Shown here: in pieces, positions 18,758-20,153 of the stretch | How the letters are laid out: every line of letters starts with the position of its first letter | Numbering within the stretch: position 1 is the stretch's first letter | From: a virus | Reading direction: 5' to 3' (one strand) | DNA length: 31,788 nt | IMG/VR virus record: IMGVR_UViG_3300042465_004729 | Location: 1-31,788 of that record | Position numbers and translations under genes: made by a program | The notes under the pieces: generated by a model | Seen by the model: the letters and a program-made list of their open reading frames with translations, nothing else | Told to the model about the DNA's origin: nothing | The model's database searches: none

Positions 18758-19123
18758 ATGGCTGAAATGCTATTGTGGTTAACGATGACAGTATGGTTTG
18801 AAGCTCGTGGAGAGCCTGAGCATTGTCAGGTAAAGGTAGCGCAGGTCGTACTAAACAGGATGACAGATGGAGATATAAAGAAGGTTATCCTAGCCCCGCG
18901 TCAATTCTCATGGGTGCAAGACAAGATGCAGGACGGAGTGCTGAAGCCAGAACATAGACCTAACAAAGAATCGGCAGCATGGAAGAAGTCAGAGGAGTCT
19001 GCTAGGACTGCGATATACTCTACCGAGAAGTTCGATGCAACGCATTTTCACTCCAAGTCGGTAAGCCCGAATTGGGGATTGAAGTTTTACAAGACCTGTG
19101 GAAACCACCATTTTTATGTGTGA
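18758..19123 (+). CDS. SleB-type cell wall hydrolase
   Basis: This 121-aa protein is a compact member of the SleB/Hydrolase_2 family, which cuts the glycan strands of peptidoglycan. Diagnostic elements are WFEARGEPEHCQVKVAQVVL (with the Glu of EARGE near residue 15), NRM, PRQFSWVQ and the C-terminal ATHFHSKSVSPNWG with NHHFYV. It has no signal peptide, so export would need a holin; the 40-aa membrane protein upstream is a candidate. Its position in the rightward, probably early operon is unusual for an endolysin. A second hydrolase, of the M15 type, lies in the late lysis cassette. It could also be a virion-associated enzyme. Confidence 0.88.
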   Translation: MAEMLLWLTMTVWFEARGEPEHCQVKVAQVVLNRMTDGDIKKVILAPRQFSWVQDKMQDGVLKPEHRPNKESAAWKKSEESARTAIYSTEKFDATHFHSKSVSPNWGLKFYKTCGNHHFYV

Positions 19124-20153
19124 ACATCCAAAGACAATGCACCTTTTCGCCGGGGTCGGTGGAGGTATTCTTGCTGATTTAATTTTAGGCCACGAACCTA
19201 TCGTGGCGGTCGAATGGGATAAATATGCTTGCAAAATTCTTAGAGAACGAGTTGCCGATGGATGGTTCCCCGGAATGTCAGTGTGGGAAGGGGACGTTAG
19301 ACTGTTCGATCCATCCGAATACGCGGGGCGAGTGGATTGCATCCATGCAGGATTCCCTTGCCAAGATATTAGTGTCGCTGGAAAGCAGGCCGGACTTGGA
19401 GAAGGCACTAGGTCAGGGCTTTACCGAGAAGTCTTGCGAATCGCTGGCGTGGTACGACCAAGATACATCTTCTTGGAAAACGTATCAGCGATCCTTTCTA
19501 ACGGACTGGGAGTCGTACTCGGAGACTTGGCCTCGATGGGGTATAACTGTAAATGGCTCTGCATTAAGGCATCCGATGTGGGCGCACCGCATGGGCGCGA
19601 CAGATGGTTTGCACTTGCCGAACGGAAAGGACTTCCACCACACGCCGAACACAACGGGGATGGACGGGGGGAGCAACAGCAGGAGGGCATTGAAGGCGCG
19701 GCTGAATTGGCCGTCACCAAACACATCTCCGACTCGCCCGCAAGAGGGCAATGTCAGGATGTTAAGAGCGAAAGTTTTGGCCGGAGAAATGACGGAAGCG
19801 GAAGCGGCAGCGATGTTAAACGGCAAATCACCATTTCAGGCGCAAGGCAAGATTCAACAATGGCCCACGCCAACAGCGCACAATGCGAAGGAAACGAACG
19901 CTCCGAGCGAGTCGAACAGAAACACTCCAACACTAGCAGCGGAAGTTGGTGGAAAACTGAACCCCTCGTGGGTCGCGTGGCTCATGGGGTTCCCGATAGA
20001 GTGGGTAAACTCAAAGGGCTAGGAAACGCCCAAGTACCACTACAGGCCGCAGCAGCATGGCGGCTTTTAACGATTAAGTCTGGGCTAGGGGGACATCCCG
20101 AAAATGTCTTGCGGGATTCTGCGGCGGGAAACCCAGTTAATCTCGATAGATAA
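19116..20153 (+). CDS. C5 cytosine-specific DNA methyltransferase
   Basis: This protein is about 345 aa from ATG 19116, which overlaps the hydrolase stop. The frame is open back to a GTG at 19098. Motifs are in canonical order: I FAGVGG (19146-19163), catalytic PCQDIS (19356-19373), VI LENVS (ENV at 19476-19484) and VIII ASDVGAPHGRDRWFALA. After a variable stretch come WWKTEPLVGRVAHGVP and the motif X-like GLGNAQVPLQAAAAW (GNAQVP at 20022-20039). The enzyme would methylate C5 of cytosine in a specific site on phage DNA, probably against host restriction; no cognate nuclease is seen. Most of the gene is overlapped in the +1 frame by a second plausible coding sequence. Confidence 0.93.
   Translation: MCEHPKTMHLFAGVGGGILADLILGHEPIVAVEWDKYACKILRERVADGWFPGMSVWEGDVRLFDPSEYAGRVDCIHAGFPCQDISVAGKQAGLGEGTRSGLYREVLRIAGVVRPRYIFLENVSAILSNGLGVVLGDLASMGYNCKWLCIKASDVGAPHGRDRWFALAERKGLPPHAEHNGDGRGEQQQEGIEGAAELAVTKHISDSPARGQCQDVKSESFGRRNDGSGSGSDVKRQITISGARQDSTMAHANSAQCEGNERSERVEQKHSNTSSGSWWKTEPLVGRVAHGVPDRVGKLKGLGNAQVPLQAAAAWRLLTIKSGLGGHPENVLRDSAAGNPVNLDR
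19225..20022 (+). CDS. Overlapping +1-frame protein of a methyltransferase-associated phage family
   Basis: This frame is open for 265 codons inside the methyltransferase gene. Its product has blocks I recognise from separate phage/prophage proteins found with methyltransferases: SLAKILVSLESRPDLEKAL, YDQDTSSWKTYQRSFL, ETWPRWGITVNG, WPTPTAHNAKETNAPS, RNTPTLAAEVGG and LNPSWVAWLMGFPIEW. The SSWKT codons (19468-19482) overlap the ENV codons of the methyltransferase. The LMGFP block overlaps the VGRVAHGVP block. The stop TAG lies within the codons for GLGN. The true start may be ATG 19225 (weak GGGA site), 19258 or 19345; the family-like part begins near the last. The function is unknown. A chance open frame would not be expected to carry these motifs. 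Confidence 0.7.
   Translation: MLAKFLENELPMDGSPECQCGKGTLDCSIHPNTRGEWIASMQDSLAKILVSLESRPDLEKALGQGFTEKSCESLAWYDQDTSSWKTYQRSFLTDWESYSETWPRWGITVNGSALRHPMWAHRMGATDGLHLPNGKDFHHTPNTTGMDGGSNSRRALKARLNWPSPNTSPTRPQEGNVRMLRAKVLAGEMTEAEAAAMLNGKSPFQAQGKIQQWPTPTAHNAKETNAPSESNRNTPTLAAEVGGKLNPSWVAWLMGFPIEWVNSKG

Follow-up and report, generated by a model that had tools for sequence, protein, structure and literature searches.

Two overlapping reading frames in a viral contig very probably encode a two-subunit C5-cytosine methyltransferase

In a viral contig of 31,788 nucleotides (IMG/VR record IMGVR_UViG_3300042465_004729, positions 1 to 31,788, referred to here as the window), which carries portal, terminase, primase, exonuclease, DNA polymerase and helicase genes, a methyltransferase gene and a second frame nested in it, here alpha and beta, overlap. 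This overlap proves to be genuine: each frame is coding, is conserved and is under selection. In all likelihood the product is a single C5-cytosine methyltransferase of the M.EcoHK31I type, made of two overprinted polypeptides, with beta supplying the target-recognition domain (TRD) and motif IX. An earlier note on this DNA had raised the idea that the second protein is a partner of the methyltransferase, and in this it judged the locus rightly.

Layout of the locus

Beta lies wholly inside alpha, in its +1 frame, and the 265-codon ORF reported in the earlier note has exactly the coordinates given below. The features to which we refer are as follows.

19098-20153, + strand: alpha ORF, C5-cytosine methyltransferase large (catalytic) domain, motifs I-VIII and X
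19225-20022, + strand: beta ORF, +1 frame, nested in alpha, with an N-terminal block, a TRD-like region and a putative motif IX
19146-19166, + strand: alpha motif I, FAGVGGG (AdoMet binding), G16 invariant and F11, G13 and G15 at least 90% (A4 numbering)
19350-19373, + strand: alpha motif IV, GFPCQDIS (catalytic Cys), G79, P81 and C82 invariant
19473-19484, + strand: alpha motif VI, LENV, over beta SSWKT, E121 and N122 invariant
19575-19607, + strand: alpha motif VIII, DVGAPHGRDRW, H159, R161 and R163 invariant
19947-19994, + strand: alpha WWKTEPLVGRVAHGVP, over the putative beta motif IX
20016-20039, + strand: alpha motif X, GLGNAQVP, G303 and N304 invariant, beginning at the beta stop codon (20020-20022)
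19468-19482, + strand: beta SSWKT, over alpha LENV
19522-19542, + strand: beta ETWPRWG block, overlapping alpha VI-VIII
19861-19908, + strand: beta WPTPTAHNAKETNAPS, a +1 frame block
19608-19956, + strand: beta TRD-like variable region, swapped between close relatives
19957-20004, + strand: beta putative motif IX, LNPSWVAWLMGFPIEW, over alpha WWKTEPLVGRVAHGVP, W252 and M254 invariant (n=94 sequences)

The blocks quoted in the earlier note are all present at the expected places in both frames, and the two codon overlaps to which it pointed, ENV with WKT and VGRVAHGVP with WVAWLMGFP, are those of LENV with SSWKT and of WWKTEPLVGRVAHGVP with LNPSWVAWLMGFPIEW. The beta frame is open from a stop at 19186, for 277 codons, with ATG 19225, 19258 or 19345 as candidate starts, the first of which gives the 265-residue protein; for alpha, ATG 19116 or 19137 is the likely start and GTG 19098 the first possible one. 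Upstream lies a cell wall hydrolase-like gene (18758-19123; PF07486, 1.1e-15), the end of which runs into the 5' part of the alpha ORF.

Alpha matches phrog_363 (6e-64) and, over residues 12-228 only, the C5-cytosine methyltransferase family PF00145 (2.8e-37), and contains motifs I, IV (PCQ), VI (ENV), VIII and X of that family. The TRD and motif IX are absent from the alpha frame between VIII and X; motif IX and a selected variable region lie in the +1 frame instead, so that the statement that alpha keeps all motifs stands for I-VIII and X and falls for the other two. The AF2 model of alpha (numbered from 19116) points the same way: pLDDT is mostly above 90 over about residues 1-170, corresponding to the catalytic fold, and 84-95 over the C-terminal helix with motif X (residues 301-320), while residues 176-290, the stretch over which beta is selected, are predicted to be disordered (pLDDT 40-50). 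With this model, Foldseek returns M.HhaI as the best match, in an alignment of 170 columns that ends at motif VIII. Across 19608-19956 the alpha frame is unconserved and probably disordered filler.

Beta matches phrog_1008 (3.2e-20, residues 39-263), annotated 'DNA methyltransferase', a name that hides a non-catalytic partner, and has encoded relatives in 82 phage records; the database check proposed in the earlier note had this outcome. Its C-terminal end, LNPxWVxWLMGFP, we read as motif IX by pattern and position. A profile of the fused proteins described below aligned with PDB sequences only over its N-terminal catalytic part (about query columns 1-185), and the homology to canonical motif IX is accordingly one of pattern and position, not of profile. 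Likewise, since beta alone gives a low-confidence AF2 model (pTM 0.26) with no match among PDB structures, and its profile has no methyltransferase match among PDB sequences, it is by motif IX, position and the fused homologues that it is assigned to the small domain.

Coding status of the second frame

Conserved alpha codons by themselves would make the +1 frame look conserved, for which reason beta was compared with shuffles in which the synonymous codons of alpha are permuted and the alpha protein is held fixed. In the window, beta reaches 205.7 bits; the shuffles give 84.9 bits (SD 11.0), with 125.9 as the highest of 2000, and only 0.05% of them have an open frame. The resemblance between overlapping blocks that the earlier note had stressed is therefore in part automatic (84.9 of 205.7 bits, about 40%), and the rest, far above chance, is selection. 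Across the relatives, the real beta exceeds every shuffle in 201 of 201 loci tested, where the profile used for the IMG/VR loci had been trained on those from GTDB and vice versa; the N part, over alpha VI-VIII, does so in 163 of 177 loci and the C part in 176 of 176. The gain in the beta frame is 0.9-1.6 bits per column around the ETWPRWG block (alpha columns 101-150) and is largest, about 3 bits per column, at alpha columns 271-290, which correspond to motif IX. Frequent stops, for which the earlier note had suggested looking in related loci, do not occur: the beta frame is stop-free over alpha columns 91-270, where several hundred stops would be expected across the set.

As a control, we examined 20 canonical C5 methyltransferases that consist of a single chain and come from the same bacterial class. 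None has an open +1 frame and none scored above its shuffles; in the 95 codons after PCQ they carry a mean of 4.1 stops, against 4.7 expected.

These results bear on the simplest alternative, namely that the +1 frame is open by accident and its resemblance to other proteins is a shadow of conserved methyltransferase codons. Such shadows exist, as the shuffles retain about 85 of 206 bits and a locus with no open beta (L230, from the 274-genome search described below) still gives a weak 27-bit match, an alpha-only shadow full of stops. As an account of beta, however, accident is refuted by the shuffle, pN/pS and canonical-methyltransferase tests and keeps practically no probability: beta exceeds every shuffle in all 201 loci, the probability of an open frame in the window is 0.0005, beta pN/pS is 0.18-0.22 where that of alpha exceeds 1, and the canonical enzymes show the pattern in 0 of 20 cases.

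Selection along the gene

Codon-position substitution counts in the second half of the gene are blurred by TRD exchange, and pN/pS was hence estimated from closely related pairs, in windows with at least 65% nucleotide identity. At motif I, alpha alone is constrained (pN/pS 0.15, against 1.06 in the +1 frame); over motifs VI-VIII both frames are (alpha 0.36, beta 0.74); in the TRD the constraint is on beta (0.18) and alpha is free of it (2.38), and the same holds at motif IX (beta 0.22, alpha 1.47); and at motif X constraint is back on alpha (0.26, against 1.03 in the +1 frame). Selection is thus relayed along the gene from alpha to both, to beta and to alpha again, and the measurement of constraint per frame for which the earlier note had called finds beta constrained at the TRD and motif IX. 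Together with the overlap in all 202 loci described below, the shuffles and the negative control, it bears out the overprinting of two conserved proteins that the note had suggested.

The TRD region is, in addition, exchanged between lineages as a cassette within the overlapping gene, with I-VIII nearly unchanged. Among pairs from L001-L202 with 85-97% nucleotide identity over I-VIII, the TRDs (alpha columns 160-270) are less than 40% identical in 94 of 211, the pairs not being mutually independent.

Distribution and arrangement of relatives

Searches seeded with beta collected 202 loci, drawn from IMG/VR, from bacterial and archaeal genomes of GTDB, from phages and from a single plasmid, and in every one of them beta overlaps alpha in the same relative frame (+1). 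In the loci examined the register is locked at both ends, with the SWKT block beginning 5 nt before ENV and WLMG 44 nt before GNA. A second search, through 274 Gammaproteobacteria genomes and without the motif-IX seed, gave matches in 11 genomes, the centre genome among them, and alpha overlaps each match in the same relative frame. A stand-alone beta was found in none of the 202 loci and, convincingly, in none of the matches among the 274 genomes. The stand-alone family invoked in the earlier note finds no place in these data, and neither do homologues of the +1 product outside the overlapping frame; the 'separate phage proteins' that it placed next to methyltransferases are the same beta, either staggered over the 3' end of alpha, as in Mycobacterium phage Eagle (gp78/gp77), Firecracker (gp6/gp5) and Heather (gp35/gp36), or nested and annotated twice, as in Paenibacillus phage Jacopo (gp56/gp57).

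Three arrangements of the same parts can be told apart: 1) the nested form of the window; 2) a staggered form (L036, L042, L046, L095, L096 and L111), in which alpha ends after motif VIII and beta extends to carry motif X; and 3) fused actinophage proteins (IrishSherpFalk gp71, Yorick gp69, Philonius gp55 and others), in which one chain runs I-VIII-TRD-IX-X in the canonical order. In the fused homologues the C-terminal half of beta sits in-frame between VIII and X, with motif IX between TRD and X. Matches to PHROG_1008 extend to the betas of staggered loci and to the N-terminal beta frame of IrishSherpFalk. The variants with alpha cut after VIII and X in beta, and those fused as I-VIII-TRD-IX-X, support the division of labour between the two chains.

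The staggered form also bears on whether alpha and beta might be one polypeptide, made by programmed frameshifting, in which I-VIII would be read in the alpha frame and, after a slip, TRD and IX in that of beta. Here a single shift would yield a canonical I-X enzyme, and selection does pass from alpha to beta just past motif VIII. The nested form, the window included, would nevertheless need two shifts to regain motif X; beta is selected upstream as well, over alpha VI-VIII, a constraint not called for by a shift after VIII; and the known precedents are two separate polypeptides. We consider frameshifting very improbable overall, and a frameshift fusion unlikely for the nested form.

The fused form bears on another alternative, that beta is an independent protein, with an anti-restriction or a regulatory role for instance, and that the methyltransferase on which it is overprinted does not need it. 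The N block of beta is under selection of its own and is kept as an open +1 frame in 7 of 7 fused actinophage forms, in which TRD and IX are in the alpha frame. Set against this, alpha has neither TRD nor motif IX, motif IX stands at the end of beta, X is found in beta in those loci whose alpha is without it, the C-terminal half of beta is in-frame between VIII and X in the fused homologues, and no convincing beta was found without an overlapping alpha; an independent beta is, in our estimation, extremely improbable. That all seven fused forms keep the N block open is nonetheless left unexplained by a simple small-domain reading, and the block may do more than complete the small domain.

The fused actinophage methyltransferases of L038 (2273-2806), L209 (2095-2631), L210 (2329-2847) and L213-L216, with TRD, IX and X in the frame of alpha, keep an open +1 frame of 102-178 aa that contains a SETWP or SETLP block.

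A two-subunit enzyme and its precedents

In the reading that we favour, one methyltransferase from two overprinted chains, alpha would be the catalytic large domain, with the AdoMet site, the PCQ nucleophile, ENV and motifs VIII and X, and beta, the translation of which would begin internally in the +1 frame, would provide the missing small domain, that is, TRD and motif IX. The N-terminal block of beta (SWKT to ETWP) would probably dock on alpha, and the two chains would assemble into a single active enzyme for which beta chooses the target. The second protein, for which the earlier note had left the function blank, thus most likely supplies TRD and motif IX. Orphan phage methyltransferases usually protect phage DNA from host restriction, and this enzyme, too, probably shields phage DNA in this way. 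We infer the physical assembly, the part of beta as specificity subunit, the methylation activity and the anti-restriction role.

In M.EcoHK31I the gene for the smaller chain lies within that for the larger, in another reading frame, and methylation in vitro takes both chains. This two-polypeptide C5 methyltransferase (YGGCCR; Lee et al. 1995, cited in PMC3404938) divides its motifs between the chains, with I-VIII and X in the larger one and motif IX in the smaller polypeptide only, and its TRD is placed, by prediction, in the larger subunit (PMC3404938). The window resembles it in layout, in that alpha has I-VIII and X, motif IX is found only in the smaller chain, and the beta gene is nested in an alternative (+1) frame (19225-20022 inside 19098-20153). 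It differs in that the TRD of the window is in beta, by selection and predicted order, whereas that of M.EcoHK31I is reported in the larger subunit, and in that M.EcoHK31I belongs to a restriction-modification system. M.AquI (CYCGRG), the other two-polypeptide C5 methyltransferase compared, has I-VIII in alpha and the distal TRD, IX and X in beta (PMC3404938), a split shared by the six staggered loci above (IX and X in beta); the window differs from it in that alpha holds X and beta is nested. Natural two-polypeptide C5 methyltransferases are thus already known and the kind is not new, while the descriptions that we found do not extend to the breadth, to the relay of selection or to a TRD in beta. 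Both frames are already annotated as DNA methyltransferases in Jacopo (gp56/gp57, nested) and in Arthrobacter phage ArV1 (ArV1_067a/067b, staggered); a search of the open-access literature found no published analysis of this overlap in phages.

A wider reading, which we advance only tentatively, is that these loci form a widespread, ancient class of C5 methyltransferases whose coding is relayed between reading frames (from alpha to both, to beta and back to alpha), with a second-frame specificity module exchanged as a dual-frame cassette and a conserved beta N block with a function of its own, kept even in actinophages with TRD and IX in the alpha frame. If it is true, the overlap ties catalysis and specificity into one inseparable unit. 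The locus is a clear case of a long same-strand overlap along which purifying selection visibly moves from frame to frame, and the nested, staggered and fused forms are natural rearranged versions for comparison. Since annotation often stops at one frame, many methyltransferases of this sort stand in databases without the probable specificity subunit, and neither cloning alpha by itself nor predicting motifs from it would succeed. In L041, L233, L032 and L033, just one frame is annotated and the gene table is without beta.

Variant and interrupted loci

Some loci depart from the three arrangements. In L090, L123 and L166, alpha has an in-frame stop between VIII and X, with X open downstream in the same frame; these are possibly three-piece enzymes, decayed copies or sequencing errors. 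In L003, alpha and beta shift frame at one place (around 3230), as a single indel or assembly error would give, and in L232 (3003-3764), in a prophage of E. coli PCP07014, both frames are interrupted close together in a gene annotated as a pseudogene with an internal stop. L026, L224, L225, L229 and L233 form a divergent overlapping subfamily in which alpha seems to be without motifs II-III, with a short step from FAGIGG to PCQ, and in two of them, L026 and L233, EQV replaces ENV.
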